Of a stretch of 64,000 nt of DNA, positions 1 through 58,710 are shown piece after piece; the stretch's first letter is position 1; the number at the start of each line of letters is the position of its first letter. The stretch is taken from positions 227,036 through 291,035 of the forward strand of contig BDDD01000978.1 of the NCBI GenBank assembly GCA_001972305.1, in the 5' to 3' direction. The stretch is from Cephalotus follicularis (Eukaryota; Streptophyta; Magnoliopsida; Oxalidales; Cephalotaceae). The position numbers and the translations under genes are program-made. The notes under the pieces were generated by a model, which did no database searches, was not told where the DNA came from, and worked only from the letters and a program-made list of their open reading frames with translations.

Positions 1-672
1 TTTTAATTGTCTGATACAAATCCAGTCGGCTGGATTTGGACGGCAGTCAGCTGGTTTGATGGCGCGTATATTTGAATATAGTCGTTGGGAGTGGGCAGTC
101 GGCTGGATTCTGTAGGCAGTCGACTGATGCCCTGCTTCAGTCGGTTGTTGAGGCTAATTTGGAAGTTACAAAACCTACTGTATGAATTTGCACAATTGAA
201 GGCAGTCGGCTGGACCCCTGTGGCAGTCGACTGGAACCCCTGGCAGTCGACTGGTCCCCTGCTACAGTCGGCTGGATTGGGTGTGAAATGTTACAGAAGC
301 TTCTGCCTGATTTGTACCCCATGGAAGTCGACTAATGCCCTGTGGCAGTCGACTGGAATTGCCTGGCCGTCGACTGGACCCCTGTGTCAGTCAACTGGTG
401 TGCTGTTTCTGCAGATTCTGGGTTTAGGTTGAAGATGCAGTCGACTACATGACTTTGGAAGTCGACTCCTAGCCTTGGCAGTCGACTGGATTGCCCTCCA
501 GTCGGCTGGAATTGCCTGTACCTGCATAAACATCCTTGGCACAACTTTGGACACAAGATTAAGTGAGTATATGCATTTATAATTTAAAGAATTATGCATA
601 CAAGTAATTTATGTTTGTTAATCATCAAAATAACTCATGGTAAACAATTAATCGGGGTGGCAAAGGCCAACA
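1..672 (-). mobile_element. Copia (SIRE-like?) LTR start, fragment
   Basis: Read on the minus strand from position 672 leftwards, the sequence opens with TGTTGGCC and soon contains TTTTGATGATTAACAAAC, the kind of LTR opening I associate with SIRE/Maximus copia elements. It then runs into a dense CAGTCGACTG array and leaves the window at base 1. No coding sequence is visible. The clade is a recollection of LTR style, not a protein match, so the class is tentative. The right border at 672 is inferred only from the TG-type terminus and from the change of repeat dialect just beyond it. Confidence 0.4.
20..510. repeat. CAGTCGACTG palindrome array
   Basis: About sixteen copies of CAGTCGACTG or one-base variants (CAGTCGGCTG, CAGTCAGCTG, GAAGTCGACT) lie in 490 bases. 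Spacing is irregular, so this is not a tandem satellite. Most copies are followed by G (CTGG). The core is a perfect 10-base palindrome around TCGA. The same word recurs in the LTRs of G1 (2735-2905) and G3 (25098-25211 and 26099-26177). Confidence 0.9.
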
Positions 673-702
673 AATACCAAGGCAAAACTCATCTGCAGAA
701 GA

Positions 703-1245
703 AGACATCGACCCTTAAGAAATGACATCCACGTCCGTACAGAAAGACATCGATCCCTTTAAAGAAGACATCGACGTCTTTAGTGCAAGATCAAATTACA
801 ATGAAGACATCGTCCTTCCAGTAATGACATCGACGTCCGTACAGAAAGACATCGATCCCTTTCAAGAAGACATCGACGTCTTTAGTAACAGAAGCTATTG
901 TTCAAATTTGCAATTGAAGACATGGATCCCTACATGCAAAGACATCGACGTCAGTACAAAAGACATCGACGCCTTTACATAGACATCGACGCCTTTCTAG
1001 AGCTACCTGCATTTCCCAGAAAAGACATCGACCCCTACAGAAGAAGTCGATGTGATGCTCAAAGTTTCAATACCTGGACATTTCCCAAACATGACATCGA
1101 CGCCTTTAAAAAGACATCAACGTCTTTTTAAAAGGTTTGACCCGGGAAACATGGAACGGCTAGTACGCGCACTTTCAACGGCTATCAACTAACAAAGACG
1201 TCGACGCCTTTACAAAGACATCGACGTCTTTATGTCAGCAGAAGA
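703..1245. repeat. GACATCGACG palindrome array
   Basis: Roughly twenty copies of a word built on AAAGACATCGACGTCTTT or AGACATCGACGCC occur in 540 bases, with irregular spacers. There is also a longer duplication: a block beginning AATGACATC(C/G)ACGTCCG at about 721 and 822 is repeated with few changes. The dialect differs from the array at 20-510 and equals that of the G4 and G7 LTRs. Confidence 0.85.
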
Positions 1246-1325
1246 CAAAATTCAAAGATTGCAACTACACATTTTTAAATCAAAAGCTTCCATGATTTAT
1301 GCAACGGCTACAAATCTTTTCTACC

Positions 1326-1333
1326 TATAAAAG
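1326..1333 (+). promoter_or_regulatory. Candidate TATA box of copia LTR
   Basis: TATAAAAG stands 16 bases after an AACGGCTA word and is followed by a purine-rich, ORF-poor leader. Position and context fit an LTR core promoter. No transcription start can be fixed from sequence alone. Confidence 0.5.
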
Positions 1334-1564
1334 GAAGATTGAAACCTCAGAAGAAGACACTGAACTACATTAATTCAACATCAATTACACAACATCAAAG
1401 AGAGATATCATATTCAAGCAATCTATTGCCAAAAAGCTCAAAGTGCACAATAGTGTTCCAAATAGCTTCTAAGCTTTATCCTTTGAGATTTTCTGAGTGT
1501 TTCATATTGTGAGCTGTATTATTCATATCAACCTATTTGAGAGTTGTATATTGCAACAATGTTT

Positions 1565-1669
1565 ATTTCAATCTCCATGGTCAACGTTCAATGGTAGTTA
1601 CACTGACTGGATGAAGCCACTTGGGAATGTGAGGATGATATCCAACAACGTTACCCACATTTATTCTAG
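1565..1669 (+). pseudogene. Gypsy integrase C-terminal chromodomain tail
   Basis: The plus frame ending at the TAG at 1667 reads DEATWECEDDIQQRYPHLF, nearly the same as the last residues of the G4 and G7 polyproteins (TWEREDDIRERYPHLF). Upstream, from 1577, MVNVQW matches MVKVQW of that domain, with two stop codons before DEATW. Only this tail remains; everything to the left is copia LTR sequence. It is followed by GGACGAAATTCCTTGAAGG and a purine tract, the normal path from chromodomain to 3' LTR in this family, so the LTR at 1716 is in 3' position to this fragment. Confidence 0.75.
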
Positions 1670-2403
1670 TATTGTTTTTAATTTTAAGGACGAAATTCCT
1701 TGAAGGAGTGGTGGATGTAACACCCGGGATTTACGCACGTTGTAATATTTGAATTCCAAATGTAATCTTGTTATTAAATTAATGAGAAAGATGAATTTCT
1801 TGACTAAGGGAACAGTCGACTGGTGTGACGAACCAGCAGACCGGTGGGCTGTTGAGCCACCTGGCAACCACAGCCACAAGGACAACCAACTTTCAGGGAA
1901 GAACAACCAGTTGGATTATGCTCTGTTTTATTTGCATGTGATGAAATCACATGCAACGACTGACAAGGAGGAGAGGTGTGCCATCTGTGCATCATGCAAC
2001 CAATGTAGAGGGAAGAGTGAAAACCTGTGCGCCCTGCAGGTCAAGGGAAAGGAAAAATCAGTCCTGTGAGTGTGTGCATGCAGATATAAGAGGTGTATGG
2101 CATTTAGTGCCATGGAAAAACAGGTTGGAGAAGAGGGAGAGAGAACCACCTACATAAAATGCTCTCCTCTTCACCTCTCTCCCCTAGTGCATGCAATGAA
2201 AGAAAAACCAGTGAGAATTACAGAGAAAAATGGTGAGGAATCTTGAGAGAAAGAGAGAGAGTTTCTCAAATTGTTGAACCAAGATGAGTTGGACGTGACG
2301 GGTTGGAGCTACTGTACTTGGAGTTGAAGCGCCTGGGATCTCAAAATGTCACTGTTGGAACCCAAAGAGGTGGACTTACAGATTCCTAATTTGGAATCAA
2401 AAG

Positions 2404-3835
2404 GTAGGGGAAGTTATGTTGTATTTTGAGCTCAAGATTACTGAATGTTATGTGATCGGTTACCTGTCTGTGTGAGCTGTGACGTTCAGTTGATATGCCA
2501 TGGTTACTGCTGGTTTTTCGTATTCTATGCTTATTGTTGAGAATTATTGAGTTTATGTATATGCATGTTGAGTTTTATCTTGGTATTAAATTGCTGGATA
2601 AGATGCATGCTACTGTTGTGTTCTATGAATTGTGAGGACTTATCAATGGTATTCCACCTTGAGAATATATATGGATGCTTGCAATGATCCGTTTAAGTGA
2701 CTTATATTGGATTGCATGTAACTGGCTTTCCAGAAGAGTCGACTGTTAAAGGAAGATAGCTGACTACTCAACCGAAATAGTCGACTGTTGAAGGATAGCA
2801 GTCGACTGCATGGTGAACAAGTCGACTGGTAGAAGGAACCAGCCGACTACTCATGTACTGATTACCCAGAACAGCCAACTGGTGAAGGATCCAACTGACT
2901 GCCAAGCTGCTGTTTGATTCTCTCTCACTTAAAATGATGCACGATACTCCCTATTTCGCTTAGGATGCATTCGAGCATTTGTATGCATTGCATATGTACT
3001 GTTTATTGCCTGTTTATTGACTTATTATAAGCAGTTTATGATTTCTAGATTGCTATGTTAGCTTAGAAATGCATATGTTAAATTAAAAATGACTATTTCG
3101 AGCACAAAATAGCTATTCGATAATAACATATTTTCAAATAACTGGGAAATTGATTTCCACCCACTGAATCGTTTAAAAAGTATTTTCCACTATTGAAAAT
3201 ACATATTTCAAATGTTTATGACTTTTGAAAACATTGTGAAATGAACTGCCTGTTATTGATCTAACGATCACCACTGTAATATTTACTACACTGTTTACTG
3301 TGACTATTCAGTGTTGCTCTGTGAATTTACTGTGTTTGTGCTTGAGCCACTAGTTGTATGGCGGAGACCGCCAGCGCCGGCTAGTGGTAGGGTTAACCTA
3401 GGAGCCAGGAGTTGGTTGGGTAACTCACTATACTGTACTGTTGTCTTGCTTTGTTGCCTGGAGTAGGGACTGAAGTGGGAGTGTAACGTGGGGCCAGGAG
3501 TTGGCGGCGTTACACATACTGCCTGTTGTGGTCCCTTTGTGGACTTACTGTACTGTTTACTGGTTCTGTTCAGACACTACTGTGCCTGGTTGATGTAGCC
3601 CTGGCCATGCTACTACTGTACTGTTGTTGCATACATATATTTTTTCATATATGTCCCTACTGATATTACACTGTACTGTTAAATTATATATATTTTTGTA
3701 TATATATATAAACTGGTATTTTCTGCTGCACTGCATCATCTACGCATACATTTCATGACATGCATGTAATGTTGATCCCAAACTACCTTTATGACTTAGC
3801 CGAGTGAGGAGAAAGGCTAACTCCCTACTTTACAG
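2404..3835 (+). other. Candidate leader intron inside G1 LTR
   Basis: A donor-like AAAAG|GTAGGGGAAG follows a block (AAGAGGTGGACTT...TTCCTAA) that is also present before the matching donor in G4 and G7. The acceptor side is a pyrimidine-rich CTACTTTACAG|ATTGATG, shared with G4 (GTAACAG|ATTGACGG) and G7. The enclosed 1.4 kb holds the second palindrome array and has no open frame. Splicing is inferred only from consensus and from conservation between families. Confidence 0.35.
2735..2905. repeat. CAGTCGACTG array in G1 LTR
   Basis: About seven copies of AGTCGACTG or decayed forms (AGCCGACTAC, CAGCCAACTGG, CCAACTGACTG) occur about 1.02-1.19 kb from the LTR start. The position matches the second array of G3, G4 and G7. 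Confidence 0.8.
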
Positions 3836-4251
3836 ATTGATGCAGTGGACTGGTTGGACTAGCTTGGACGAAGAACAAGCCTTTATGTTATTGTTGTTGG
3901 CTTTATATTCTTCTGGATTGTAATAAACTGGTTTTGTTTTAAGGACTACTGATGTACCGTAACTTTGGTTTTGTTTAACGATGAGTAATGTATTATGGAT
4001 CACGCTCCCATTTATGGGCTTTTAACTATGACAGACTTTTATTGAGTAGCGTGCAGTATGGGATGCACGTTACGTGTTTTTCGGCTTCTGAGTTTTAATG
4101 CTTCCGCAACTGATATCTTGTTTAAAAGTTTAAATTTTATGGTATTTGCATGAGCTGAATCTTATTGTTAATTGCCTTTACCACTTTTATGTGTTTCTAC
4201 TTGAAACCGGGGCGTGATAGTCGGTTGTTGTCGGGAACGGGTGTGACAATT

Positions 4252-4264
4252 TTTGTATCAGAGC
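4252..4264 (+). other. Primer-binding site of G1
   Basis: TTTGTATCAGAGC lies three bases after the LTR end and resembles the initiator-methionine tRNA complement TGGTATCAGAGC seen in G3, G4, G7 and K4. The first bases are changed (TTTG for TTGG). Confidence 0.6.
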
Positions 4265-14334: not shown

Positions 14335-14525
14335 GCAATTGCTGCCACAACTATCGACGCCTTACTGTTAATAGTCGATGCTTTGGGGTTGATCAGTCGA
14401 CGCTTTGTGTTGATTAGTCGACACTTATGCACAATAGATCGACGCTTATGCATTACAAATGGCTATAAGTCATCGCTTAGGGCACAATGCCTTAACCGTC
14501 GACGCCTAATACAAAGTAGTCGACG
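14335..14525. repeat. GTCGACGC/ATCGACGC array in G2 LTR
   Basis: About nine copies of ATCGACGC, GTCGACGC or GTCGATGC, each followed by T(T) or C(C), occur in 190 bases with irregular spacers. The relative G5 has the same array at 41205-41410, so it predates their split. Confidence 0.85.
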
Positions 14526-17540: not shown

Positions 17541-19721
17541 AGATAGGGTGACATGACAAGGCATTTGATGGGCTTATGTATCGGACCTATTTATGTAAAT
17601 AAACAGTCTTTTTCCATATATGTGACATGTGCTGATTTTTTTTATGTTTATTATGGCAATATCACTTGTGTTTTATCTCAAAATTGAAGTATTTTAAATT
17701 ACCCTACTTACACTTGTGATGCCTTGACATAAGGTTGGATGCCAAGCATTGAGGCCGTGTGATTGGCTACCTTATTCCTTATGTTGAATTAGTTCCAAGT
17801 CATAGGTTCACTTTGTGTGCATTAGTGAACCGGATAGACTTGCCCGTATGTTGCCTACTTTTGGAAATTGGAGGATGGATTCTTTCACTACCATCTGTGT
17901 TGTGACGCTACGACAAATACAGGGTGCGCGCTGGGAGCGTGTACACTGAACAGGACCCGTGTAGGATACACTATTTGGATAGTCGTTATTCTCGTGTCAA
18001 TAGTGATTCCTACTTGTTGCGGTTGTGTATAAGTGCAAGTCACTTAGATAGTTCGTGAACTCGTCTGATCCTTAGACCTGAGTGACTGCTCTATATTGTA
18101 TGGAGAAAGTTATGCTTTGATCTCCACCTTACCCAGTTCTTATGCGGGACTGGCAATCGGGTGGTGTTTGGGTATGATCGAATCTATACGAATATAAGCG
18201 AGTACGCAATATGGGGTTGTCACACCTGAGCGAAGGTGATCGACCCTATTATGGTCTGATTGTACTTTGGACTTATAAAATCCTTGGGCCAAGGACGAGG
18301 TGGACTGGAAATTAGATTTCTGGAAAGTCTACCTAAGGTCCTAGTAATTAATCAGATATTTTAGCCACTGAGGTAAAATTAGGGTTGACACGCACCCTTA
18401 CCTTATACCTCAGCGGGGCCAAGTATGACGAGGGATTATAGTACACGTGAATCGACCACTTAAAAAGTCTCGTATTATGCGGTGTGTAATAAATTATAAG
18501 AAAACTATTTAGATTAATTTTTCATCAGGATAATATTGGATAATAGTCTGAAAGCATTTTAAATGAGTATGGGGCTGTTTAGAATGGCTTAACCGAACCC
18601 TATGGGGTATTTTGGTAATTTATGAACACCACCGATTTTAACCGAGATTTCAAAGTGTCTCTTTCCGATAATGATTTCTTCATAAATACGTTGGGCATAA
18701 TTAGTCTTTGTGGCAATTATAAAATCAAATTTTGGTTAGGTGGATTTTGCGAATTGTGTCATCCTTAAATGGTGACACATTTGCTTGATCTTATTTAATT
18801 ATTCTTCAAAGGGATATGTGGCATTACTAAGATGAGTAGGACTCATTTAAGTTATTGTTGGATGTTTCCTTTGAGAAGTGAAATGTGTCATACAAAGAAT
18901 GAGTTGGACTCATTTTTGACACGTGTAAAGCCGAACATGTTGTGGAAGGCATTGATGCTTAGCCTGTCTAAGCGTCAACGCCTTTGAAGAAAGTGTCGAC
19001 ACTTGGTGCCTTAACTTGGGCACACTACATGGGAACGCGACGTGGGTCCGTTCTTCTCCCACTCCCAGTAAATTTTCCTTCTCAGAGAGAAAAGAGGGAG
19101 CACATTGGGAGTGGGAAGAGGTTTCCTTAGAGGAAGCGTCGTGATGGTGCACAATTTGTGGGCACTAGTTTGTGCAACTTTGTGCGCTACCTGTTGGCAT
19201 AAAAACAGAGGGTGAAATTGCTGGTGTGTAAGCATCCAATACTTGAGCAACCCCTTCGATGATTTGTTCACCAAGCTTGGAGCTAACCTAGGGTGGATTG
19301 TTATTGACAACCCTTGTCAATTACAAAGTTCCCTTTGTGAGCATAGATAGGAAACATAGAGTCTTGCAGAACAGAGACGGTTTTATGGAAAAACAGTTGC
19401 TGGCGTTTGGAACCCGGTGCTTGTCACAGCAGAATTTTGACTTGGAGGAGAAACTAAAAGTTGGAAGTATCAATGTGAGTCTACCCACGCTTGTATCGGC
19501 AAAGACGTTGGAGCCATCACCATTCGGTATGTCTCCTATTTTGCCTCTGTGTTGTCATGTTTATATCACATAAGCATGTATGGGTGATATGAATTCAATT
19601 ACGTAATTGATGTAGTGTTCCTTGTGACCTGTATTCCTTGAATTGGACCTGTTTTAGTGGTGTTAAAGGTTGCTTCCACTGCCATGTTTAAACTAGAAAA
19701 TTTTTGTTTGTACCTTTAACA
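17537..19721 (+). mobile_element. K1 copia 3' LTR
   Basis: The LTR starts TATTAGATAG after AAGTGGGAGAT (polypurine tract) and ends CTTTAACA, consistent with copia TGTTAG...CTAACA ends after a G-to-A change, 2,185 bases. It contains a block starting near TTCCAAGTCATAGGTTCAC that recurs in K2, K3 and both K4 LTRs, and a few GTCAACGCC/GTCGACAC words at 18960-19010. A reversed copy begins at 21318 (see K3). It carries no gene. Confidence 0.75.
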
Positions 19722-21317: not shown

Positions 21318-22086
21318 TGTTAGAAGTGCAAACAAAAATTTTAATATAAACAAGGCAATGGAAAACAAACTTTCACACGAACAAACAGGTCCAATTCAGC
21401 AGGGATAGCTGGTCACAAGGATCACCACATCATAAGCATAATTGAATTGGCATCACCCATACATGCAATGGTGATACACTAACAAGGCCACATAGAGAGA
21501 GACAAGGAGTTCATACAATTCGATGATGGCTCCTTTGTCTTTGCTGCTTCAACCTTGCGAAGACTCCCTCTATGTACTCCTCCAAGTTGAACTCCTACAG
21601 CTCCAGGCAGCAATGGAACATACCGAAAAATAGCCCTCTGTTTCCACTCTCTCTCTCACAATACTCACCAAGAGAAGATTGGGATTGACTAAGATTGTCA
21701 ATAACAATCCACCCTGGGTTAGCTACAAACTTGATGGACTAGTCAGAGAAGGGATTTTGCAGAGAACTTTCCCAACAGTTTTTACAAAAACGTTGAAGTC
21801 TCACACCACTGCAATCTCTTTCCCCTCTTTATTTCAGCCGATTTCTCTCTTTCACAATTGCACCCACTCCAAGATCACTGTCCTTCCTTTTAGGAAAAAA
21901 CGATTCCATGATCCAGTCGTGCTTCCATCCACAATCCAAGAGGTGAAGCATGCTAGTAATGGGAGACAGAACGGGCGCATTTTGTGCGCCCACGTAAGGA
22001 ACCGATGTTACCGCTCTAAGCGTCGACGCTTTTCCAAAAATGTTGTCGCTTAGACGAGCTAAGCGTCGACGCCTTTCCAACATCCT

Positions 22087-22850
22087 TGAAGTTTTGATTT
22101 GTTCTTTAATTTTCTGCCTTCACATGCACTTTTTCTGTTTGATTAAAATCCACAAACATCTTGACGGTGAGTATGAAAGTTGCTGAATAAATTGTCTTTA
22201 AAGCAATCAATGGAGTCTACTCATACGGTTTGTCACGCCGAACACACTCCGTATACACCTTGCATGTCTACTCATACAATTTGCCGCTGCTGCTGTAGTC
22301 CGTATAGACATAGCATAACTACTCATACGATTTATCATCACAGTCACACTCCGTAGCGACCTAGCAACCGTTGGTTATCAAGGTTTGATCATTAAAGTAA
22401 GTGAATTATTCAATATAATGTATGTGAGTTTCTATACCCTAAAACCGACTTTGATTTGCATACTTAATTCCCTTTAATTTATTGCTTTGATAATTCATAG
22501 TTTCATATGTTACAAATTTGTTAGTTTTCAATCTAGTGCTTAACCGTTGACGCTTTCCTTGATAGCGTAACATTTGTTTAGTGTACGTCAACGCCTTAAG
22601 TCGACACTTTCCTTGTTTTTTTTCTTATAATCGTCAACGCCTTGACAAAGCATCGTGTTTTCCTGCCTATTTTAATTAGTTTAGTTTATTTTGTTTACGA
22701 GTAGATTTTGATAATAATCCTCGGTTTTGCATACTATGCTTAGGCTAAATAGATTAAAATTAATTTAACTTGATTTCCTGTAGCGTTCGACCCGTTACTG
22801 CACAACCGTGCACTTGCGGTATAAACTTTAAAACATTCAAAACATGTTAA
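22087..22850 (+). mobile_element. J: Athila/Tat-like LTR fragment or solo LTR
   Basis: Near its right end the text TTTCCTGTAGCGTTCGACCC and then CTTGCGGTATAAA has the form I associate with the last bases of Athila/Tat gypsy LTRs, which lead to a TGGCGCC-type primer site; none follows here, so a solo LTR or truncated piece is likely. It interrupts the copia LTR K3. It contains a 51-base tandem repeat and GTTGACGC, GTCAACGCC and GTCGACAC words at 22550-22650. Borders are approximate. Confidence 0.4.
22217..22369. repeat. 51-base tandem repeat, three units
   Basis: CTACTCATACGGTTTGTCAC, CTACTCATACAATTTGCCGC and CTACTCATACGATTTATCAT start at 22217, 22268 and 22319, exactly 51 bases apart. Each unit has a later ACTCCGTA or AGTCCGTA. 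Units have diverged strongly between these anchors. Confidence 0.9.
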
Positions 22851-25097
22851 CAGAAAATGTGCCCATGATACCAAACGTTCACCCCATTACTCTGAAGAGA
22901 GAAAATCGCTATGATTGGGAGAGAGAAAACGTGCACATGTCATGCGTCCGGTTAGGGCACCCATGATATGCACTAAGCGTCGACGCTTTGACATGCTTTA
23001 GCTTTAATGATTTCTCCAAAAGGCGTCGACGCATAAACCAGGTTGGCATATACATATGTCAATAATGAGTCAAACTCATTCTGTATTCAACACATGTTCA
23101 CTTTTCCAAGAAATTAACCACTACATCATATAAATAGGTTCTATCCATTCAAGTGATATTGCATATCCCCTCGAATATTAATTAAATAAGATTAAGCAAA
23201 TGTGTCACCACACGTTGCAAAATCCACCTTACAAATATTTGATTTATGAATGTCATCAAGACTTAAATATGTCCAACATATTTATGAAAAAATCAATATC
23301 GGGCAATGACCCTTTAAAAACTCGGTTAGAATCGGTGGTCTTCTAGAATTACCGAAATACCCCTAGGAGTCCCAGACCTATTTAAATGCTCCTAAAATAA
23401 TATCCAATATTGTCCAGTTGGAAAAAAATTAATCCAATTAATTTTCTCATAAATTATTGCACACCGCCACAACGCGAGACTTTTGAAGCCGTCGGTCCGC
23501 GTGTACTATAATCCGTTGTCATACTTGGCCGTGATTGAGGTCTCGGGTAAGGATACGTGTCAACGCGAGATAACACCTCAATGGCTAAAATATCTTATTA
23601 TTACTAGGACCTTTGGTAGACTCTCCGGAAATCTAATTTCCAGCCCACCTCAACCTTGGCCAAGGTTTTCATATATCCAAAGTACAATCAGATTATAATA
23701 GGACCGATCACCTTCGCTCAGGTGTGACAATACCATATTGCGCACTCGCTTATATTCATACTGTCACACCCCGCCTTTTAGTTCCATTAGAGACAAGCAT
23801 ATATGGTGATATCAGAAATAAAATATAATCCAGCATTCGCATTCAACAATTCAAATAATATAAGCGGAAGCATTCATATTTGGATTATAAAACAAAAGTC
23901 ATCCGCACGCAGCCATACTACGTGCATGTACAATCCGACAATAATCCTTTTACATGAGGATAGTACAACAATCACACGGAGTGTGAACCATTCAATACAA
24001 ATACAGTACATCATCATAAAATAACAACCTTAGGATAGAAAGAAGCTCCCCAAAAGCTTCATCAGCACCCTCCAACATCTTCGCTTAATCTGAAATTGTA
24101 GGGGTTAGCCGTTGTCCTCACTTGGCTAAGTAAGAAGACAATGCATGTTAAAGAATATATAAATGCAACATGTATGACATTTTATATTAAAATAACATTT
24201 GAGTATTCCAATATATAAGCAACCATGTCAAGTGGCCATAGACAATACAATGCAAGAATACCGCACAAGGGTACAATCAATTCATACTGTGGTTTGGGTG
24301 TCACATGTCGTTAACTCCTAGAACCAACTGTGCACCACCTAACTATCACCCTACACTCCGAAGATGATAGATAAGGTAACATGTACTACCGGCATTACCG
24401 GGCAGTTTAACAATAAGATCTACATTGCAGATAGTTTGGGTGTGTACTCTAGCCAACTCATGGCACATAGGACCACCTCTGTTAGCCAGTGACATCTGCC
24501 ATCACTCGACTAATCGGCAATAACATAGACAATCAATTCAGTAATAATATTACATATATATATAATATGCAATATAGTATTTGTTTTCTTTTAGAAACAT
24601 ATAACAATTCAGTGATCATACATCTCTTTAAGAGGAAAACGATATCAATACAATAGTGGTTCCCAGTTGGAGAACAAAACAGGAGGTACCTCCCATAGGA
24701 GGAGAACAGTAAATCATTGGCAATGAGTTTTCATTTTGAAACTTTTAGTTAAAACCATATTCGTACTTAAAGCACTTAGTTGGTTTAATCATTGAAAATA
24801 AGTGATAGTAGTGTTAAAGAATACTTAAACAGTATATACGAATTATGACAGTAGTATATACAGTAAACAGCGAAGCACAATAGTAGTGAACAAGCAATTC
24901 GAGGAATCTAGTAAGGTAATTAGTATACCATAGTCATTCATGTGCAACTCTCACACGGAGTACATACTTGTTTAGCTTCTGAAATGTAATTGTATATAAG
25001 GCCAGGATTGATTGCTCTAATCATCCATATGGAGGCCAAGTTAATTACATTTAAATTGAGGCCCAAACAGGACCTATATCAGAATTTTAACCCAGGA

Positions 25098-25211
25098 CAG
25101 TCGACTGCTCTCAAGAACAGTCGGCTATTTTGATTGAGTAGTCGACTGTTTTCCCTTAACAGTCGACTGGATAGATTGAGTAGTCGACTGCCATGAAGAA
25201 CAGTCGACTGC
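25098..25211. repeat. CAGTCGACTG array 2 in G3 LTR
   Basis: Six copies of CAGTCGACTG or AGTAGTCGACTG lie in 114 bases, five with the perfect core. They stand about 1.14-1.25 kb from the LTR start on the minus strand. Confidence 0.92.
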
Positions 25212-26098
25212 TTTGCCCAGAAAATGCAGGCAGGTGCAGGTTATGCATTTTAATGTCCAAATACAAACCCAATAACACATGCAATCAAACAGAAAATTAA
25301 GCATACGTGATATGCATAATATATCTTCCAAATATGTCATTACCCCTACCTTAAACGCTATCACGAGATCAATTGGGATTGATCTCTCTCATTGAGTTTC
25401 CAAGGCCTTTTCACTAACAAATCTTCCAATATCCAGTAATTACTTATCTTTGCATGTTACAGAAGATGTATATATGTATAGTCAGTATACACATACCTAG
25501 AGACAACTACAACAACAACTATAATCGCATCACAGGCTTATCAACAATTCCTTAACTCCACTTTCACATTTAACCACTTCCATTACAATTTCTGTCTCCA
25601 ATTTTTAGCTTATTACTGGTGATCATGTTTAATCAGTGGTTATAGGACGAATGTGATACTATTTAACTATAACCTTAATACTATCAGAACTTTGAGCTTA
25701 CCAGGAAATCCAAGCTTCAAGTCCTCCTTTGCACTCTAAGCCATCAACATGCATCCACTTGCCAACAGCTACTGTCCAGAGTTTCCTTCTCTCTCAAGTG
25801 TTTTCAACATTCACACTCTAATCTAACAGCTGATATAAAGGCTTAGGAGCTTTAGAATTCGCCAGATTCTCATTAACTCAGCCTTCTCTTTTCTCTCTCT
25901 CACATGTTCACTCCTCTCTCATTTTTCTATCTTTTTCTCACTACTCTGCTGTGATTGCAGGTTGCAGGTCTGCAGAGTACATGCAAGGCACTCCTTTTGC
26001 ATGTGATGGCAGCTGCTGGCTTCGCATAACACCTTTCCATCATGCCTTGCTTCTGCCCTGTCTCATACGAATGCACAGACACCTATTATGTACCATTC

Positions 26099-26177
26099 CA
26101 GTCGACTGACTTTAGCAGGCAGTCGACTGTCACCCCACGCATCAGGCAGTCGACTGTTTCCCTGTGACAGTCGACTG
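26099..26177. repeat. CAGTCGACTG array 1 in G3 LTR
   Basis: Four perfect CAGTCGACTG copies occur in 79 bases, 172-250 bases from the LTR start on the minus strand. Spacers are unrelated to each other. Confidence 0.92.
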
Positions 26178-26390
26178 TTTGAGCTGATTTTTTAGGGTTC
26201 CTTATGTTTGTTTTACCAATTTGTATTTCAACCAACCCAAGCATTCACTAATCACAATTACTATGATAATTGGACATATAATATCAATTAGAATGTATAC
26301 TTTATTTAAAATTGGAGCAATATACATTAATTGAATTGCGGTTATTACATTCCCCCATCCTTAAAGAAAATTCGTCCTCGAATTTAGCCC

Positions 26391-30533: not shown

Positions 30534-31782
30534 TGTCACACCTCGCCTTTCAGTTCCATTAGAGACAAGCATATATGGTGATATCAGAAATAAAATATAA
30601 TCCAGCATTCTCATTCAACAATTCAAATCATATAAGCGGAAGCATTCATATCCAGATTATAAAACAAAAGTCATCCGCACCCAGCCCATACTACGTGCAT
30701 GTACAATCCGACAATAATACTTTTACATAAGGATAGTACAACAATAACATGGAGTGTGAACCGTTCAATAGAAATACAGTACATCATCATAAAATAAGTA
30801 CCTTAAGATAGAAAGAAGCTCCCCAAAAGCTTCAGCAGCACCCTCCAACGTCTTCGCTTAATCTGAAATTGCAGGGGTTAGCCGTTGTCCTCACTTGGCT
30901 AAGTAGGAAGATAATGCATGTTAAAGAATATATAAATGCAACATGTATGACATTTTATATTAAAATAACATTTGAGTATTCCAATATATAAGCAACCATG
31001 CCAAGTGGCCATAGACAATACAATGCAAGAATACCGCACAAGGGTACAACCAATTCATACTGTGGTTTGGGTGTCACATGTCGCTAACTCCTAGCACCAA
31101 CTGTGCACCACCTAACTATCACCCTACACTCCAAAGATGATAGATAAGGTAACATGTACTACCGGAATTACCGGGCAGTTTAACAATAAGATCTGCATTG
31201 CAGACAGTTTGGGTGTGTACTCTAGCCAACTCATGGCACATAGGACCACCTCCGTTAGCCAGTGACATCTTCCATCACTCTACTAATCGGCAATAACATA
31301 GACAATCAATTCAATCAATTCAGTAATAATATTACATATATATATAATATGCAATATAGTATTTGTTTTCTTTTAGAAACAAATAACAATTCAGTGATCG
31401 TACATCTCTTTAAGAGGAAAATGATATCAATACAATAGTGGTTCCCAGTTGGAGAACAAAACAGGAGGTACCTCCCATAGGAGGAGAACAGTAAATCATT
31501 GGCAATGAGTTTTCATTTTGAAACTTTTAGTTAAAACCATATTCGTACTTAAAGCTCTTAGTTGGTTTAATCATTGAACATAAGTGATAGTAGTGTTGAA
31601 GAACACTTAGACAGTATATACGAATTATGACAGTAGTATATACAGCAAACAGTGAAGCACAATAGAAGTGAACAAGCAATTCGAGGAATCTAGTAAGGTA
31701 ATTAGTATACCATAGTCATTCATGTGCAACTCTCATACGGAGTACATACTTGTTTAGTTTCTGAAATGCAATTGTATATAAG
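30534..31782 (-). mobile_element. G3 5' LTR, cut by G4
   Basis: It begins TGTCACACCTCG and follows the 3' LTR closely for 1,249 bases, up to ATTGTATATAAG, where G4 starts. The missing outer part (matching 24995-26349, including both palindrome arrays) should have been moved to the right of G4 but is not found; the right side of G4 is itself truncated. Confidence 0.88.
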
Positions 31783-31951
31783 TGTAACGCCCGGTATTTT
31801 CCTGAATGTAATATTTCAATTTATGATGTAATCTTAAACTTGAATAAATGAGAATGTTGAGATTTTGAACTCAAAAGATGCTTACAAACCCTAGTTATGG
31901 TTTTGGAAATGGAATGTGCATGTCAAAACTTAAACGACGCTGTTTTGGGAT

Positions 31952-32106
31952 AAAGACATCGACGTCATCGGAAAGACGTCGACACCTATGGGAACCGAGG
32001 TACACGTGAATGCATGGGCATGCACGTCGACATTGAGGGAAGGCATCGACACCTTCTTACAAAAAGGGAAAGGACATCGACGTCTAAGGAAAGACGTCGA
32101 TGCCTT
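31952..32106. repeat. ATCGACGTC array 1 in G4 LTR
   Basis: About seven copies of AAGACATCGACGTC, AAGACGTCGATGCC or CATCGACACC occur in 155 bases, 169-323 bases from the LTR start. The same array is at 39565-39716 in the 3' LTR. Confidence 0.88.
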
Positions 32107-32626
32107 TGTAAAGAACGTCTGTCACGTTTTTTCACTGACAGAGTAACATGCAATGGGATCTTTCGGGGCTTTACCAGACGCCTTTACAGGTGCATTATGA
32201 CGTGTTGATCATGCTGGTGTGTTTCCAGGAATGCCCAAAACATGCCCCTCACATGGAACATGCAAGGAACATACCATCCTCACATGCAACCTGCAAAAGA
32301 AAGAAGGGAAGAAAACAAAAGAAAAGTGCAGAATCTGGAAAGAGGTAGAGGGCACGAGAATGCCCATTAAATGTAAGGAGAAGGATGTTGGGGGGGAGCC
32401 ACCTGCATAGGAACAACCCTTCCCACTTCTCTCTCTCATTTTAAAACACCAAAGGAAAAAGTGGAAAGAAAACAGTTAGTGTGAAAGCCACCATTGTTGA
32501 GTTTTCTTGGAGCTAGAGATTGAAGCTCGTGGGTAGCAGTTGCTGAGAGGATCTTGGAGCTGCTGGTGGCCAGAACTTGGGAACTCAAAGAGGTGGACTT
32601 TCCAGTTCCTAACTTAGAACAATAAG

Positions 32627-34294
32627 GTAGGGGAAAGTGATAGATTTATACATGCATTTTGGGTTTTAAGTTAATGAATAACATGATGAATAGCATGTTA
32701 ATGGTTGAATTGTGATTCTGGACTTGTTGTGGTGTTACTGTGATACACTGAGTTAATCATGCATGTACGATTACATGAATATGTGAGTTGGTTGTGTAAA
32801 GGATGGATTTGATAATGGCTTGGTGTGTTAAAACTGTGGAAAAAGACATTCTGGGTTGTAAAGACATCGACGACTATGTAAAGACGTCGATGCCTTCGTG
32901 TGAAAACGTGAAAAACATCGATGTTTAAGGATAGACATCGACGCCTTTTCTGATCTTTATATAACTGTAAGGTTATGCCTTCGTGTTGCATGCGAAAGAC
33001 AACGATGTCTTTTGATAGACATCGACGCCTTTTCTGGGGATTACAGGACAGTAGTGTTTACTGTTGTTGGTAAACCGCCCTTGGAATTACATGTTTTATG
33101 CATGAAATGATGTTCTGGTTATAATCCTGTTAACCAGTAGCATACCTTACACGTTGAGAGAGTGAGATTCGTTTACATGAAGGATTAAAAGGCCGGATTC
33201 TACCCTCCAGAATGAAGACTCGCGCACTGATACTCTCTGGTATCATAAAGACATCGATGTCTTTGTAAAGACATCGACGTCTTTGGTCCAAAAACGCCTG
33301 GGAATATTTGTACATGGGATCGACGCCTTAGTATAAAGACATCGACGCCTTAGGGATAGACATCGATGCCTTTTCCCCTGATCAGTAGAATTTCTCCCGA
33401 ATGGAACCCGCTAGACCCGAAACGACTCTAGGAACGAACCTAGATGCATTCTGAGCATATGTTGCATTTTAACTGTGATTTGCATTATGGTTGCTTTCTA
33501 AAAGTGTTAACCATTTTGAAAAGCCTGTATGATTATAATAATCATTTTGTACAAAAATATATATTTGTCAACATATGAATTTATATATTTTCGAAATGAT
33601 TGGGGAAGTATTTCCAATGATGGAGAAATGTTTTAAAGGGTTGATTATGAAACCAAATGTATTGTGCAAAAATGTATATTTGTCAACATATGAATATATT
33701 TTCAAAATGATTGGGGAAGTATTTCCAATGACAGAGAAATGTATTGTTCTAAGTTTTATAACTTATTACAACTTGTGAACGGAATAATATATTTTAAACA
33801 AATATATATTGATCAAGTAATTATATGTTATTGCTTGACTTGTACTGTGCAATGCTTGTGCCTGTTGATTATTAACCACTGTGCTAATAACTTGTTGATT
33901 ACTTAGCCACTGTGCTAGTAACTTGCTGTTGGTTTAGCCGCCGTGCTAAACAACTTACGGAGGACTTACTCCAAACCCGTTCGCAAATGGGGATGGAGTA
34001 AGAGTGCATGACATTGGGGCCAGGAGGTTGCGACGGTCATGACGATTGGTTTGTCTGGTTCCTTTTGGGACATATTTACTGCTTGCGTTGATATAACTTA
34101 TGAGTTATACTTGTACTGTGAACATGCATATATTTTTATATGTACATACGGAGATAAAATTGCTGTGAAAATTACATGTCATACTGCATCATACTGCATT
34201 CATTCATGATACTCATTATCATATGACTCGAACTGTAATTATGGGTTTATTCACGTAGTCGAGTGAGGACAAGGGCTAACCCCTTCTGTAACAG
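32627..34294 (+). other. Candidate leader intron inside G4 LTR
   Basis: Donor-like AATAAG|GTAGGGG and acceptor-like CCTTCTGTAACAG|ATTG enclose 1.67 kb with the second palindrome array and no open frame. The same two borders are found in G1 and G7. If spliced, the mRNA would lose most of the LTR leader before the gag start. No RNA evidence is available here. Confidence 0.35.
32860..33374. repeat. ATCGACGTC array 2 in G4 LTR
   Basis: About a dozen copies of AAGACATCGACG/ATGT(C/T) words lie in three groups (32860-32950, 33000-33035, 33246-33374). AAAGACATCGATGTCTTT at 33247-33264 is a perfect 18-base palindrome and is followed at once by a near-perfect second copy. Confidence 0.9.
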
Positions 34295-34677
34295 ATTGAC
34301 GGAGTGGATATGATATGGAGCATGCGTGGAGACTTAAAGAGAAGACTTGTTATCTCTCTTATTTATGTATTTGGGTTATGGAACATTGATCATGTTGTTC
34401 GGATTTTATAACAAAGGATATTTTTTTATCTCGTACTGTATTATTTCACGCTCCGTTTTGGGCGATCGACATTTATGTTTGGGTTATTTATAAACTTGTT
34501 GGGCATCACGTAGTATGGGATGCGTGATGCGTATTTAAAGTCGGCTCATTTATGTTGTTGCTTCCGCTATCGATGGTTTTTATTTATTGGTTATTTTGCA
34601 TGAGCTGGATTGTTTTATGTTGATTGCCTTACCATTTATTTGTTGCCTTGTCATGGAAAAATGGGGGCATGACAACG

Positions 34678-34689
34678 TGGTATCAGAGC
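34678..34689 (+). other. Primer-binding site of G4
   Basis: TGGTATCAGAGC lies three bases after the LTR end; it is complementary to initiator-Met tRNA. Confidence 0.9.
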
Positions 34690-39393: not shown

Positions 39394-40897
39394 TGTAATG
39401 CCCGGTATTTTCCTGAATGTAATATTTCGATTTATGATGTAATCTTAAACTCTAATAAATGAGAATGTTGAGATTTTAAACTCAAAAGATGCTTACAAAC
39501 CCTAGTTATTGTTTTGGAAATGGAATGGGCATGTCAAAACTTAAACGGCGCTGTTTTGGGATAGAGACATCAACGTCTTTGGAAAGACGTCGACGCCTAT
39601 GGGAACCGAGGTACACGTGAATGCATGGGCATGCACGTCGACATTGAGGGAAGGCATCGACACCTTCTTACAAAAAGGGAAAAGACATCGACGTCTAAGG
39701 AAAGACGTCGATGCCTTTGTAAAGAACGTCTGTCACGTTTTTTCACTGACAGAGTAACATGCAATGGGATCTTTGGGGGCTTTACCAGACGCCTTTACAA
39801 GTGAATTGTGACGTGTTGATCATGCTGGTGTGTTGCCAGGAATGCCCAAAACATGCCCCGCACATGGAACATGCAAGGAACATACCATCCTCACATGCAA
39901 CCTGCAAAAGAAAGAAGGGAAGAAAACAAAAGAAAAGTGTAGAATCTGGAAAGAGGGAGAGGGCATGAGAGTGCCCATTAAATGTAAGGAGAAGGATGTT
40001 GGGGGGGAGCCACCTGCATAGGAACAATCCTCCCCACTTCTCTCTCTCATTTTAAAACACAAAAGAAAACAGTGAGTGTGAGAGCCACCATTGTTGAGTT
40101 TGCTTGGAGCTAGAGATTGGAGCTCGTGGGTAGCAGTTACTGAGAGGATCTTGGAGGTGCTGGTAGCCAGAACTTGGGAACTCAAAGAGGTGGTCTTTCC
40201 AGTTCGTAACTTGGAACAATAAGGTAGGGGAAAGTGATAGATTTATACATGCATTTTGGGTTTTAAGTTAATGAATAACATGATGAATAGCATGTTAATG
40301 GTTGAATTGTGATTCTGGACTTGTTGTGGTGTTACTGTGATACACTGAGTTAATCATGCATGTACGATTACATGAATATGTGAGTTGGTTGTGTAAAGGA
40401 TGGATTTGATAATGGCTTGGTGTGTTAAAACTGTGGAAAAAGACGTTCTGGGTTGTAAAGACATCGACGTCTATGTAAAGACGTCGATGCCTTCAGGTGA
40501 AAACGTGAAAAACATCGATGTTTAAGGATAGACATCGACGCCTTTTCTGGGCTTTATATAACTGTAAGGTTATGCCTTCGTGTTGCATGCGAAAGACATC
40601 GATGTCTTTTGATAGACATCGACGCCTTTTTTGGGGATTACAGAACAGTAGTGTTTACTATTGTTGGTAAACCTCCCTTGGAGTTACATGTTTTATGCAT
40701 GAAATGATGTTCTGGTTATAATCCTGTTAACCAGTAGCATACCTTACACGTTGAGAGAGTGATATTCTTTTACATGAAGGATTAAAAGGCCGGATTCTAC
40801 CCTCCAGAATCAAGACTCGCGTACTGATACTCTCTGGTATCATAAAGACATCGATGTCTTTGTAAAGACATCGACGTCTTTGGTCCAAAAACGCCTG
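39394..40897 (+). mobile_element. G4 3' LTR, truncated
   Basis: It begins TGTAATGCCCGG and matches the 5' LTR up to CCAAAAACGCCTGG, then breaks off at 40897. About 1.39 kb of its end is missing. A leader block and donor-like GTAGGG (40224) and both arrays are kept (39565-39716 and 40455-40880). The next base begins an unrelated LTR (G5). Confidence 0.88.
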
Positions 40898-41204
40898 GAT
40901 GATAAGAGGTAGGTTATACTATTGCTTGCATTACATTCATGCATTCTAAATGATTATTTGGATTGATATGTGTACGAATTGTACTTGTATGGATGCATGA
41001 TTGTATATATATATACAAGTATACGAATGGATATGCATATTGCATATGACATATGATATAAGGGTTCGATATTGAATTAAGAGGAGATGAGTTCTTGCCA
41101 TCTCTCAATTCACGGGCTATGGGATGAATCTTAAAAAGGGCTTTGAATTGTTTTGGACATAGTTCCATTGGTTTACAAACTCTTTCACAAACTGCATTTG
41201 CTAC

Positions 41205-41410
41205 AAAAACCGTCGACGCTTTATGCTTTCAAAACCAAACCCGTCGACGCTTTCATGTCTTAAACTAAGTAGTCGATGTTTTATACTTATGCTTTCTAAA
41301 CTTGTCGACGCTCTTATGAGTTAAACCAAACAGTCGACGCCTTATGCTTTAAAACAAACCATTGACGTTTTATACTTGTGCTTTTTAAAAGTGTTAACGC
41401 CCGGGCTAAG
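41205..41410. repeat. GTCGACGCTT array in G5
   Basis: About eight copies of (C/T)GTCGACGCTTTATG-like words, some decayed (ATTGACGTTTTATAC, GTTAACGCCCGGG), occur at a spacing of 30-40 bases. The array corresponds to 14335-14525 of G2, but the flanking words differ, so the two arrays have evolved apart. Confidence 0.85.
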
Positions 41411-42082
41411 CATCAACTCTTAGTGCCCTATTCAGCCCAAACACACCGTTTTACATGGTTTTCCATCCAAAATGGTTGTATCTTCAACCGGATTCCATAG
41501 AAAGCCCCCCTAAGGCTATGTAACATATGGAAATCCTTCTATATCACATTTGATTTCTAAATCGATGTTCAAAGTGAAGTTTTAAGGAAAGTACTCAATA
41601 AAAGAGTTTTACGCAAATGGTTTCTAAATGGTTTTCAAAATGGTCAGGATAGTTCCATTGGGGATATCGAGATGCGGATATCTTATTTGGACTTCCTCTC
41701 CATTGTTTTATGGATTTTAGAATGCTCAGGTACTTCCATTGGGACATCTGGGCGCGGATACTCCCATTTGGACTCCCTTTCCATTCATTATAACATCGAT
41801 AGGGACCAACCAAATGATATATTAAAAATTGATTACAAAATGGATTATTGACACAAAAATGGCCATTGGATATGAAGAATGACATATGATTAAGAAATGA
41901 TCTTTGTATGATTTGACGGATGTGGATCCTATGAGATCCTTTACAAAGTGGTCCTTATTATTTAAAAACATATATGATTTTGGGTCACAACTACGGGATG
42001 GATTATTGGTTGTATTGTATGAGACTAACGAGATAACCCGTTCCTGACATTCATTTCCGCCATGAATGTCAGGAACGATAGA

Positions 42083-55929: not shown

Positions 55930-55982
55930 GGTATGAGTATGTTTATGATTTCGGGACGAAATCCTTTTTAAGGGGGGCTGGA

Positions 55983-56236
55983 TGTAATGCCCTGTTTGTT
56001 CGTGTGCATATTTTCGGACTTTTATCTGTTTTGCTAAGTAGGCTGTCTACTTTATGTCGGTTTATATGCATTGGGCTGACTGATACCATCCTTGGTTATG
56101 AGTATGTTAGTATGTATATGTAGGTAGGGTTTGTTTTATTCTATTATAATCTCTTTTCAAATCAAATTTTAATTTTATTTTAAACTTTTTATAAATAAAA
56201 CCCGTTTTATTTAAACTTCCTTTTTCTCTTTCTCAT
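55983..56236 (+). mobile_element. G6 3' LTR start, cut by G7
   Basis: TGTAATGCCCTGTTTG begins after a purine tract (AAGGGGGGCTGGA, 55970-55982) and GGGACGAAATCC. After 254 bases it is interrupted at 56237 by G7. No palindrome array is visible in this short piece. Confidence 0.8.
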
Positions 56237-57454
56237 TGTCACGCCCCCGTTTCCACAACAAGACAACACATAAAGTGGTAAGGCAATCAACACAAGATAA
56301 TCCAGCTCATGCGATAAAACGGATAAATAAAAACCTTCAGTAGCGGAAGCCATAACATAAATGAGCCGAATATGAGCACGCATCACGCATCCCATACTAC
56401 GTGATGCCCACAAGGTTATAAATAACTCAACATAACTATCGGTCGCCCAAAACGGAGCGTGAAATAATACAGTACGAGATAACAAAATATCCTTTGTTAC
56501 AAAATCCGAATAACATGATAAATGTTCAATAACCAAATACATAAATAAGAGAGATAACAAGTCTTCTCTTTAAGTCCCCATGCATGCTCCATATCATGTC
56601 CACTCCATCAATCTGTTACAGTAGGGGTTAGCCTTTGTCCTCACTCGGCTAAGTGAATAAACCCATAAATACAGTTCGAGTCATATGATAATGAGTATCA
56701 TGAATGAATGCATTATGATGAGCCATGACATGTAATTTTCACAATAAGTATACCTCTGTATATACATATAAAAATATATGCATGCTCACAGTACAAGTAT
56801 AACTCATAAGTTATATCAACACAAGCAGTAAATATGTTCCCAAAAAGGAACCAGACAAGCCAATCGTCATGACCGTCGCCACCTCCTGGCCCCAACGTCG
56901 TGCACTCTTACTCCATCCCCGTTTACGAACAGTTTTGGAGCAAGTCCTCTGTAAGTTGTTTAGCACGGTAGCTAAACCAACAGCAAGTTACTAACACAGT
57001 GGCTAAGTAATCAACAAGTTATTAGCATGGTGACTAATAATCAACAAGTTATTAGCACGGCGGCTAATAATCAACAAGCACAAGCATTTCACAGTACAAG
57101 TCAAGCAATTACATATAATTACTTGATCAAATATATTTGTTTAAAATATATTATTCCGTTCACAAGTTGTAATAAGTTATAAACTTAAAACAATACATTT
57201 CTCTCTCTTTGGAAATACTTCCCCAATTATTTCAAAAATATATAAATTCATAGTTTGACAAATGTACATTTCCGTACAAAATGATAATCATAATCATACA
57301 AGCTTTTCAAAATGGTTAACACTTTTAGAAAGCAACCATAATGAAAATCATAGTAACAATGCAAACATATGCTCAGAACGCATCTAGGTTCGTTCCTAGA
57401 GTCGTTTTGGGTCTAGCGGGTCCCATTCGAGTAAAATTCTACTGATCAGGGGAA

Positions 57455-57810
57455 AAGATGTCGATGTCTATCCCTAAGGCATCGACGTCTTTATCATACC
57501 AGAGAGTATCAATACGCGAGTCTTGATTCTGGAGGGTAGAATCCGACCTATTAATCCCTCATATAAACAAATCTCACTCTCACAACGTGTAAGGTATACT
57601 ACTGGTTAACAGGAACATAACCAGAACATCAATACGAAACCAAACAGGTGATCCCAAGTGGCTAAATGGCCATCTGAAATGAACATTACAGTTCTACGAT
57701 TTCCCAGAAAAGGCGTCGATGTTAATCAAAAGACATCGATGTCTTTCACATTTTCACACGAAGGCATCGACGTCTTCACATAGACGTCGATGTCTTCACA
57801 ACCCAAAACG
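57455..57810. repeat. ATCGACGTC array 2 in G7 LTR
   Basis: About eight copies in two groups (57455-57495 and 57712-57810), such as AAGACATCGATGTCTTT at 57730. They stand 1.06-1.42 kb from the LTR start. The segment is shorter than in G4; one group present in G4 near 33247 is partly lost. Confidence 0.85.
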
Positions 57811-58549
57811 TCTTTTCCATAGTTTTAACACACCAAGCCATTATCAAATCCATCCTTTACACAACAGATTCACGTATTCATGTAATCGTACATGCATGAT
57901 TAACTCAGTGTATCACAGTAACACTACAACAAGTCCAGAATCACAATTCAATCATTAACATGAAATTCACCATGTTATTCATTAACTTAGAACCCAAAAT
58001 GCATGTATAAATCCATCACGTTCCCCTACCTTATTGTTCCAAGTTAGGAACTGGAAAGTCCACCTCTTTGAGTTCCCAAGTTCTGGCTACCAGCAGCCCC
58101 AAGATCCCCTTAGCAACTGCTACCCGCAAGCTCCAATCTCTAGCTCCAAGAAAACTCAACAATGGTGGCTCTCACTCCCACTGTTTTCTTTCCTCTCTTT
58201 TTTCTGGTGTTTTAAAACGAGAGAGAGAAGTGGGGAGGGTTGTTCTTATGCAGATGGCTCCCCCCCAACATCCTTCTCCTTACATTTAATGGGTACACTC
58301 ATGTTCTCTCCCACTTTCCAGATTTCTGCATTTTCTTTTGTTTTCTTTAACCTTCTTTCTTTTGCAGATTTCATGTGAGGATGGTACGTTCCTTGCATGT
58401 TCCATGTGAGGGGCATGTTTTGAGCGTTCCTGGCAACACACCGGCATGACCAACACATTGCAATGCACATGTTAAAGCGTCTGTAAAGCCCCCAAAGACC
58501 CCCCACTGCATGTTACTCTGTCAGTGAAAAACATGACAGACGTTCTTTA

Positions 58550-58710
58550 CAAAGGCGTCGACGTCTTTCCTTAGGCGTCGATGTCTTTTTCCTTTTGAAA
58601 GAAGGTGTCGATGCCTTCTCTCAATGTCGACGTGCATGCCCATGCATTCACGTGTACCTCAATCCCCATAGGCGTCAATGTCTTTCCAATGACGTCGATG
58701 TCTTTGTCCC
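58550..58710. repeat. ATCGACGTC array 1 in G7 LTR
   Basis: About eight copies of AAAGGCGTCGACGTCTTT, GGCGTCGATGTCTTT and relatives lie 164-324 bases from the LTR start on the minus strand, the same interval as array 1 of G4 (169-323). Confidence 0.88.

Follow-up and report, generated by a model that had tools for sequence, protein, structure and literature searches.

Why do unrelated retrotransposons of one plant genome carry rows of the same short palindromes in their long terminal repeats (LTRs)? The question is raised by a 64,000-nt stretch of Cephalotus follicularis DNA (the window), in which words centred on TCGA form arrays in LTRs of copia and gypsy elements alike. For comparison, we used a second contig sample of 200 kb (C1; 264 kb together with the window), a third sample of 40 kb from two further contigs, and word counts over 1.577 Gb of the genome, where the reversed word served as control. 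The words come in three dialects, CAG-TCGA-CTG (dialect 1), AAAGAC-RTCGAY-GTCTTT (dialect 2) and AAGNG-TCGA-CGCTT (dialect 3), and their RYCGAC core and spacing are conserved more than the palindrome itself. Judging from words, core, spacing, helical phase, position within the LTR and presence in copia and gypsy elements, we consider it probable that the arrays are putative DNA-level enhancers, serving as platforms for a family of host transcription factors that would bind them, possibly cooperatively, and activate transcription.

TCGA-centred palindromes are abundant across the genome

The window contains 28 perfect TCGA-centred palindromes of at least 10 bp, compared with 2.9 ± 1.8 in 20 dinucleotide shuffles, bearing out the excess claimed by an earlier sequence-only reading of this DNA. 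Among the 16 palindromic cores in the window, only ATAT and TATA, which reflect microsatellites, also far exceed expectation. The same class of palindromes was found 90 times in C1 and 22 times in the 40-kb sample, with CAGTCGACTG accounting for 60 and 18 of them, respectively. Genome-wide, all three dialect words greatly exceed their reversed controls, with 197,377 versus 939 for CAGTCGACTG, 9,899 versus 8 for AAAGACATCGATGTCTTT and 18,108 versus 15 for AAGCGTCGACGCTT, while CAGAGCTCTG, keeping the CAG/CTG arms around an AGCT core, yielded 1,111 versus 120; these counts are inflated by the copy number of transposable element (TE) families and measure abundance, not independent events. The array observation is thus real, larger than first described, and recurs in two further genome samples. 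The origin of the samples from Cephalotus follicularis agrees with a C1 gag ORF, for which all entries with a readable organism name among the best 120 of 1,036 matches come from this species, and with a C1 ORF that matches CFOL_v3_00005 at 100% identity across 65% of its length; plastid matK gave fragments only.

The arrays listed by the sequence-only reading are present, although most of their units are imperfect: our window scan found no perfect palindrome of at least 10 bp at 703-1245, 14335-14525, 22550-22650 or 41205-41410, and two imperfect units at 22542-22642. Missing from that list were arrays at 26099-26178, 31952-32107, 39563-39718, 40457-40881 and 58551-58705.

The conserved core of the words

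Taking 205 TCGA palindromes of at least 8 bp as anchors, we found CG at a frequency of 0.196 (161 sites) at ±20/21 bp, compared with 0.024 at half-turn offsets. RYCGAC made up 142 of these 161 phased sites (GTCGAC 96, GCCGAC 28, ATCGAC 15, ACCGAC 3), a count in which the anchors are TCGA words and often mutual partners, so that pairs are counted twice and some of the GTCGAC share follows from the choice of anchors; the lack of other NNCGAC words at the phased sites does not. In the 40-kb sample, 29 of 34 phased sites were RYCGAC.

The spectrum of single changes is restricted for dialect 1. CAGTCGACTG occurs 74 times in 264 kb, and 15 words differ from it by a single change. Two of these, CAGCCGACTG (54) and TAGTCGACTG (25), are common, whereas each of the others is found 0–3 times; the CpG-decay product CAGTTGACTG occurs twice. 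Genome-wide, the T4 to C word CAGCCGACTG, containing GCCGAC, is found at 177,392 sites, 47-fold more often than the T4 to A word CAGACGACTG (3,752; 1,011 reversed), and CAGTTGACTG (21,361; 4,173 reversed) is eight times rarer than CAGCCGACTG. CAGTTGACTG also contains TTGAC, which we take to be a W-box-like core. For dialect 3, the 264 kb yielded 16 exact copies of GCGTCGACGC, 11 of the decay word GCGTTGACGC, seven of GCATCGACGC, and three other words with 5–6 copies each.

Words are spaced in phase with the DNA helix

The arrays had been described as irregular. This does not hold, as 81 of the 132 gaps of up to 130 bp between neighbouring tolerated CAG words, counted over both LTRs of a pair, measure 19–22 bp and none is shorter; a further 15 are 41–42 bp, eight are 27–28 bp and eight are 49–52 bp long, besides others. 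Correspondingly, the autocorrelation of TCGA over 264 kb reaches 15, 43, 61 and 17 at lags 19–22, where 3.2 are expected. Genome-wide, TCGA pairs amount to 228,596 at lag 21, 10,953 at lag 26 and 41,066 at lag 31, the last count coming partly from repeated families. One such family joins TCGACGCTTATG, half of a dialect-3 word, to ACATCGA, half of a dialect-2 word, at a distance of three turns, and the spacer between them is conserved.

We next assessed the helical phase on 19 hand-picked arrays of equal weight, dropping those with fewer than three pair distances and using 300 jitters of up to 5 bp as null. The mean cosine at 10.30 bp was 0.597, versus 0.072 ± 0.037 after jittering (maximum 0.186), and remained at 0.494 (jittered 0.056 ± 0.036) when gaps of up to 23 bp were left out. 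With arrays weighted equally, 10.3 bp (10.25–10.30) came out best among periods of 4–26 bp. By dialect, the seven dialect-1 arrays (0.704; jitter maximum 0.319) and the eight dialect-3 arrays (0.494; jitter maximum 0.364) exceeded all 300 jitters.

A period of 10.25–10.30 bp is close to the nucleosomal repeat, and phased CG words could serve to hold nucleosomes or a methyl-CpG reader in place, and not a transcription factor. We regard such chromatin arrays as improbable, as nucleosome positioning would not demand RYCGAC at 142 of 161 sites, nor the 47-fold preference for C over A.

Arrays in the window

The arrays and their carrier elements in the window are as follows, where E1 and E2 denote two gypsy elements and the gypsy groups A, B and C are defined by protein identity, not by a tree.

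1..674, minus strand: part of an LTR from a Sirevirus-like element, C1:157624 family (82.9% identity over 696 aligned bp to C1:157623-158316); dialect-1 array of 11 sites at 23-508
673..1313, plus strand: second copia-type LTR piece, C1:102703 family (85% to C1:103208-103714; family gag PF14223); dialect-2 array of 12 words at 743-1231, most of them paired at a distance of 20–21 bp
2734..2849: dialect-1 array with a perfect 12-bp palindrome at 2798-2809 and variants 21 and 41 bp off
14335..14525: imperfect dialect-3 words in an array with gaps of 21, 22, 21, 21, 60 and 21 bp
18970..19004: a pair of dialect-3 words at a distance of 21 bp
22018..23034: dialect-3 words, four of them perfect palindromes (22018, 22063, 22975, 23023) and two imperfect (22542, 22629)
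23762..26352, minus strand: 3' LTR (2.59 kb) of gypsy E1, group A, its 5' end set by homology to C1 LTRs; LTR pair 95.4% identical with 30534-31782 over 23762-25000; dialect-1 arrays at 26099-26178 (sense offset 175–254) and 25098-25210 (1142–1255)
31783..34674, plus strand: 5' LTR of gypsy E2, group B, its end inferred from the primer site at 34678; LTR pair 95.6% identical over 31783-33301; dialect-2 arrays at 31952-32107 and 32860-33373
39394..40898, plus strand: E2 again, the aligned part of its 3' LTR, holding dialect-2 arrays at 39563-39718 and 40457-40881
41208..41421: imperfect dialect-3 words in an array with three-turn gaps of 31, 29, 32 and 29 bp
56236..58874, minus strand: LTR belonging to a third gypsy element, likewise of group B, in which dialect-2 arrays occupy 57454-57797 and 58551-58705

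E2 is apparently inserted within the 5' LTR of E1 at 31783, where the E1 LTR alignment ends and E2 begins. Both E1 LTRs hold a further palindrome with a GTAC centre, GGAGGTACCTCC (24682-24693; 31464-31475). An ARAGORN run on the window using the bacterial code gave no matches.

Sirevirus-like copia elements

Three copia elements of C1 carry Sirevirus hallmarks. C1_4376 and C1_102703 encode a PF14223 gag, and C1_4376 in addition contains an open reading frame (ORF) with a below-cut-off match to Transposase_32, whereas the single ORF of at least 150 aa in C1_157624 is Transposase_32, with no gag or pol match; none of the scanned ORFs of the three copies matched reverse transcriptase. Purine tracts, as copies of the polypurine tract, are found in the last 0.55–1.1 kb of each element (four in C1_4376, five in C1_157624, four in C1_102703), mainly of the AGGGGGAG type with a few shorter ones, and all three share the AT/TG attachment site AGGGGGAG-AT-TGTTG. 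The 5' junction reads CA-GTTGG-TATCAGAGA in C1_4376 and CA-AGTGC-TATCAGAGA in C1_102703, compared with CA/ATTGG-TATCAGAGC in Sireviruses, and none was seen in C1_157624. LTR palindrome arrays, which belong to the definition of Sireviruses as RM boxes, are present in all three, with RYCGAC in place of the CGG-CCG core of the Sirevirus RM. Furthermore, both copia elements with a Transposase_32 ORF contain a second, internal array upstream of it:

C1:7490-7674: internal array of C1_4376, before the Transposase_32 ORF at 8148
C1:159089-159160: internal array of C1_157624, with the Transposase_32 ORF at 159183, 23 bp behind

The dialect-2 element at C1:102703-107186 seems to be inserted into a dialect-1 array, pieces of which lie on either side (102356-102681; 107199-107343).

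The copia half of the observation is therefore known in kind, and the remark of the sequence-only reading that it could name no described system with this property does not hold for it. Bousios et al. 2010 (PMC2829016) described 8–32 palindromic RM boxes per Sirevirus, mostly in the upper LTR half upstream of the TATA box, with further boxes upstream of the envelope gene (ENV), just as the internal arrays here precede Transposase_32 ORFs. The Vitis RM CGGTCGACCG and the Tnd-1 RM ACAATCGATTGT even have TCGA centres, although the Sirevirus core is CGG-CCG except in Tnd-1. The passages of PMC2829016 considered here compare Ty1/copia only, call the RM absent from classic copia elements, name no factor for the palindromes and give no spacing rule, in contrast to the Cephalotus words, which are helix-phased and also found in gypsy LTRs. 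This gypsy sharing and the helical phasing were not met in the literature covered: titles and abstract starts of the papers listed, with subscription journals mostly outside coverage, showed no report of palindrome arrays common to copia and gypsy LTRs, and the exact word was not found in literature on palindromic motifs of LTR retrotransposons.

Gypsy elements share words across groups

The gypsy elements E1, E2, C1_65432, C1_184062 and C1_168030 encode Retrotrans_gag, RVP_2, RVT_1, RNase H and H2C2 integrase in gypsy order, not every domain being present in every copy, and a weak chromodomain match below cut-off (PF00385, E-value 2.4e-4) was confined to window 58923-60284. Group A (E1, C1_65432, C1_184062; 81–91% protein identity within the group) uses dialect 1. 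Group B (E2, window 56236, C1_155063; 82–92%) uses dialects 2 and 3, and group C (82–85%) comprises C1_168030 with dialect 1 and window 53418, whose LTR is not assigned. Protein identity between A and B ranged from 56 to 83%, with 13 of 15 comparisons at 59–75, and between A and C from 48 to 68%, mostly 52–62. Dialects thus do not track protein similarity, as dialect 1 occurs in A and C, whereas B, nearer to A, has others. Likewise, the proposed family specificity of the arms does not extend to superfamilies, as two dialects are found in copia and gypsy LTRs alike.

In group A, the first array begins at sense offset 153–175 in all three members, and in C1_65432 and C1_184062 it is present in both LTRs; it is therefore part of the gypsy LTR and no stray insertion. 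In each of these two elements (C1:65432-73991 and C1:184062-192643), one LTR lacks a segment of about 0.68 and 1.27 kb, respectively, which bears the second array in the partner LTR.

Position within LTRs

We compared LTR with internal sequence in 16 elements (54,523 bp LTR, 67,871 bp internal). TCGA in 20/21-bp pairs is enriched in LTRs (93 in 54.5 kb versus 23 in 67.9 kb), whereas TCGA overall is similar (225 versus 252). Eleven of the 23 internal paired sites belong to the two Sirevirus-like internal arrays, eight lie at C1:173616-173862 inside C1_168030, perhaps a nested piece, and four elsewhere. Pairs at 20/21 bp were present in at least one LTR of 10 of the 16 elements.

In the C1_4376 LTR the sites span 176–520, and a mid-LTR TATA box follows at 563, 43 bp after the array; in C1_106035 it lies at 659, about 90 bp after the array. 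A second TATA-like word stands near the LTR end in each. These two LTRs, otherwise different, share GCCGAACCACTATAAATT near their ends (sense offsets 949 and 1015).

The position of the arrays bears on a possible role in element RNA, as hairpins or as dimer or packaging signals, which the sequence-only reading had offered as one branch of its interpretation. The words are self-complementary, and by inspection the CAG/CTG arms could give a 3-bp stem with a UCGA loop. Nonetheless, the array of C1_4376 and C1_106035 lies upstream of the mid-LTR TATA box and would thus be missing from the 5' leader of a transcript driven by this box. On the sense strand of ten arrays, single variants that preserve the outer pair (U-G) are as frequent as those that abolish it (C-A), 6 versus 6, and a phase of 10.3 bp reflects the DNA helix. 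An RNA role is thus disfavoured, and we regard it as very unlikely.

Spacers between convergence and exchange

Spacers had been described as lacking similarity, which is nearly but not entirely the case. Their identity is 0.352 within arrays and 0.279 between arrays, with 0.253 expected by chance. Comparing 24 copia with 22 gypsy spacers, we obtained a mean best match of 6.875 versus 6.366 ± 0.147 in shuffles, none of 300 reaching the observed value, and CAGGG is common to both superfamilies, occurring in eight of the 46 spacers versus 0.5 in shuffles.

Large-block transfer between the superfamilies was rejected, as BLAST (200 kb of C1, E-value 1e-6) matched the E1 and E2 LTRs to C1 copia elements only over 36–52 bp inside arrays, with no similarity outside them. 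Template switching as suggested by the sequence-only reading is therefore not seen for large blocks, whereas single units of about 21 bp may be exchanged, as the CAGGG spacers would allow. Together, the spacer and BLAST results thus show neither pure convergence nor block transfer, and exchange of units, or a composite site, may lie behind the shared words.

A further reading is neutral drift, whereby a functionless minisatellite of about 21 bp spread among LTRs by recombination. The slight likeness of spacers within arrays, the shared CAGGG and the CpG decay visible in dialect-3 words fit this view. On the other hand, the words are kept while the spacers decay to near chance between arrays, three-turn gaps of 29–32 bp occur in dialect-2 and dialect-3 arrays, and the decay word CAGTTGACTG, though above its control, is far rarer than CAGCCGACTG, so that we consider neutral drift an improbable account.

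A putative platform for host transcription factors

The phase, the core and the position point to protein binding at the DNA level upstream of promoters, and of the branches of the earlier interpretation, the one invoking a host factor fits best (RYCGAC core, helix phase, mostly the 5' half of the LTR). In the mechanism that we propose, rows of the RYCGAC core with dialect-specific arms would present themselves on one face of the DNA, mostly two turns apart and mostly in the LTR 5' half (U3). A host transcription factor, or close paralogues, would bind them, probably cooperatively, and drive transcription of the element, and the second array of two Sirevirus-like elements would drive the internal ORF downstream. 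Different superfamilies would keep or gain the same word through exploiting the same factor.

As the core resembles (G/a)(C/t)CGAC, factors of the DREB/CBF type (AP2/ERF) are possible candidates, which we put forward tentatively on motif grounds. The RYCGAC set equals this motif of barley HvCBF1, as cited in PMC3602543, at the 142 of 161 and 29 of 34 phased sites, with the C form absent from dialect 3. An enrichment of DREB/CBF sites was reported for those maize TE families that are linked to genes responding to cold, heat and salt (PMC4287451). These CRT/DRE sites of stress-linked plant TEs (core A/GCCGAC or (G/a)(C/t)CGAC) likewise occur in several superfamilies including gypsy and copia, whereas the passages of PMC4287451 and PMC3602543 considered here make no mention of palindromic arrays in phase. 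Literature on CBF binding to GTCGAC (CAGGTCGAC-type) sites gave nothing useful. ONSEN, known for its heat-response elements, is a single copia family with a motif other than TCGA palindromes. It resembles the present case in carrying host stress-factor sites in an LTR retrotransposon (PMC8725346).

Several observations weigh against the host-factor platform. AP2/ERF factors bind an asymmetric site as monomers, so that palindromic arms and dialects are left unexplained by them. The C/t rule fails in dialect 3, with no copy of GCGCCGACGC in 264 kb and the CpG-decay word GCGTTGACGC as the commonest variant, which slightly reduces our confidence. With respect to spacing, the 27–28 bp gaps (8 of 132) are out of helical phase, 7 bp is the second period (0.354) and, without equal weighting, 7.1 bp nearly ties with the helical period, and the two dialect-2 arrays yielded a phase of 0.405, just below the jitter maximum of 0.408. 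Control AGCT pairs are also raised at lag 21 (53,403 versus 24,169 at lag 26 and 29,461 at lag 31). The arrays of related families are not independent and were picked for word runs, and the phase statistics overstate the case. Six of the 16 elements have no 20/21-bp pairs in their LTRs, among them C1_155063, which nevertheless carries dialect-3 words. Finally, no TATA-like word follows the array in C1_157624, and in gypsy LTRs TATA-like words are found some 180 bp or further downstream of the last array, within the array (E2, 1175), or not at all (C1_168030).

A more far-reaching version would see a two-turn RYCGAC code common to Ty1/copia and Ty3/gypsy, present in hundreds of thousands of copies and with dialects independent of descent, through which a common host or element factor (perhaps the Transposase_32 product) licenses LTR transcription, with elements competing for or borrowing factors; we hold this to be speculative and give it a fairly low probability. 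If the host-factor reading is true, unrelated elements are controlled through one common input, and a plant genome holds ready-made regulatory sites by the hundreds of thousands. The search for the factor can start directly from a defined core, a rule for the spacing and three dialects found in two superfamilies.

Transposase_32 and the analogy to VANC

By analogy, the strongest rival is anti-silencing, in which an element-encoded protein, perhaps the Transposase_32 product, binds the words and removes silent marks to the profit of unrelated elements. Its model, VANC, stems from the VANDAL elements of Arabidopsis, which are DNA transposons. VANC targets are short, diverging motifs in tandem repeats of non-coding TE DNA with family-specific dialects (PMC5735166, PMC10398659), and the analogy gains its rank from the presence of VANC6 motifs in an unrelated element, AT9TSD1, as well (PMC5735166). 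They differ from the Cephalotus arrays in that the VANDAL binding protein is known, and the terms 'palindrom' and 'spacing' are absent from the main text of PMC5735166. The core of the Cephalotus words, moreover, resembles a known host motif, and on balance we deem anti-silencing unlikely.

Transposase_32 is a positional candidate for such a factor, being the only ORF of at least 150 aa in C1_157624 and directly following its internal array in an element devoid of gag or pol matches. As a DNA-binding factor it was not sustained, as neither Pfam, which assigned PF20167 alone to three homologues, nor a PDB profile search (no significant match, best E-value 0.068) revealed a DNA-binding domain; the structure model was unusable, with a mean predicted local distance difference test score (pLDDT) of 39. 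An ORF of C1_4376 gave weak leucine-zipper matches below curated cut-offs. The Transposase_32 (PF20167) ORF of C1_157624 has 297 homologues, the best 120 of which are all from Cephalotus.

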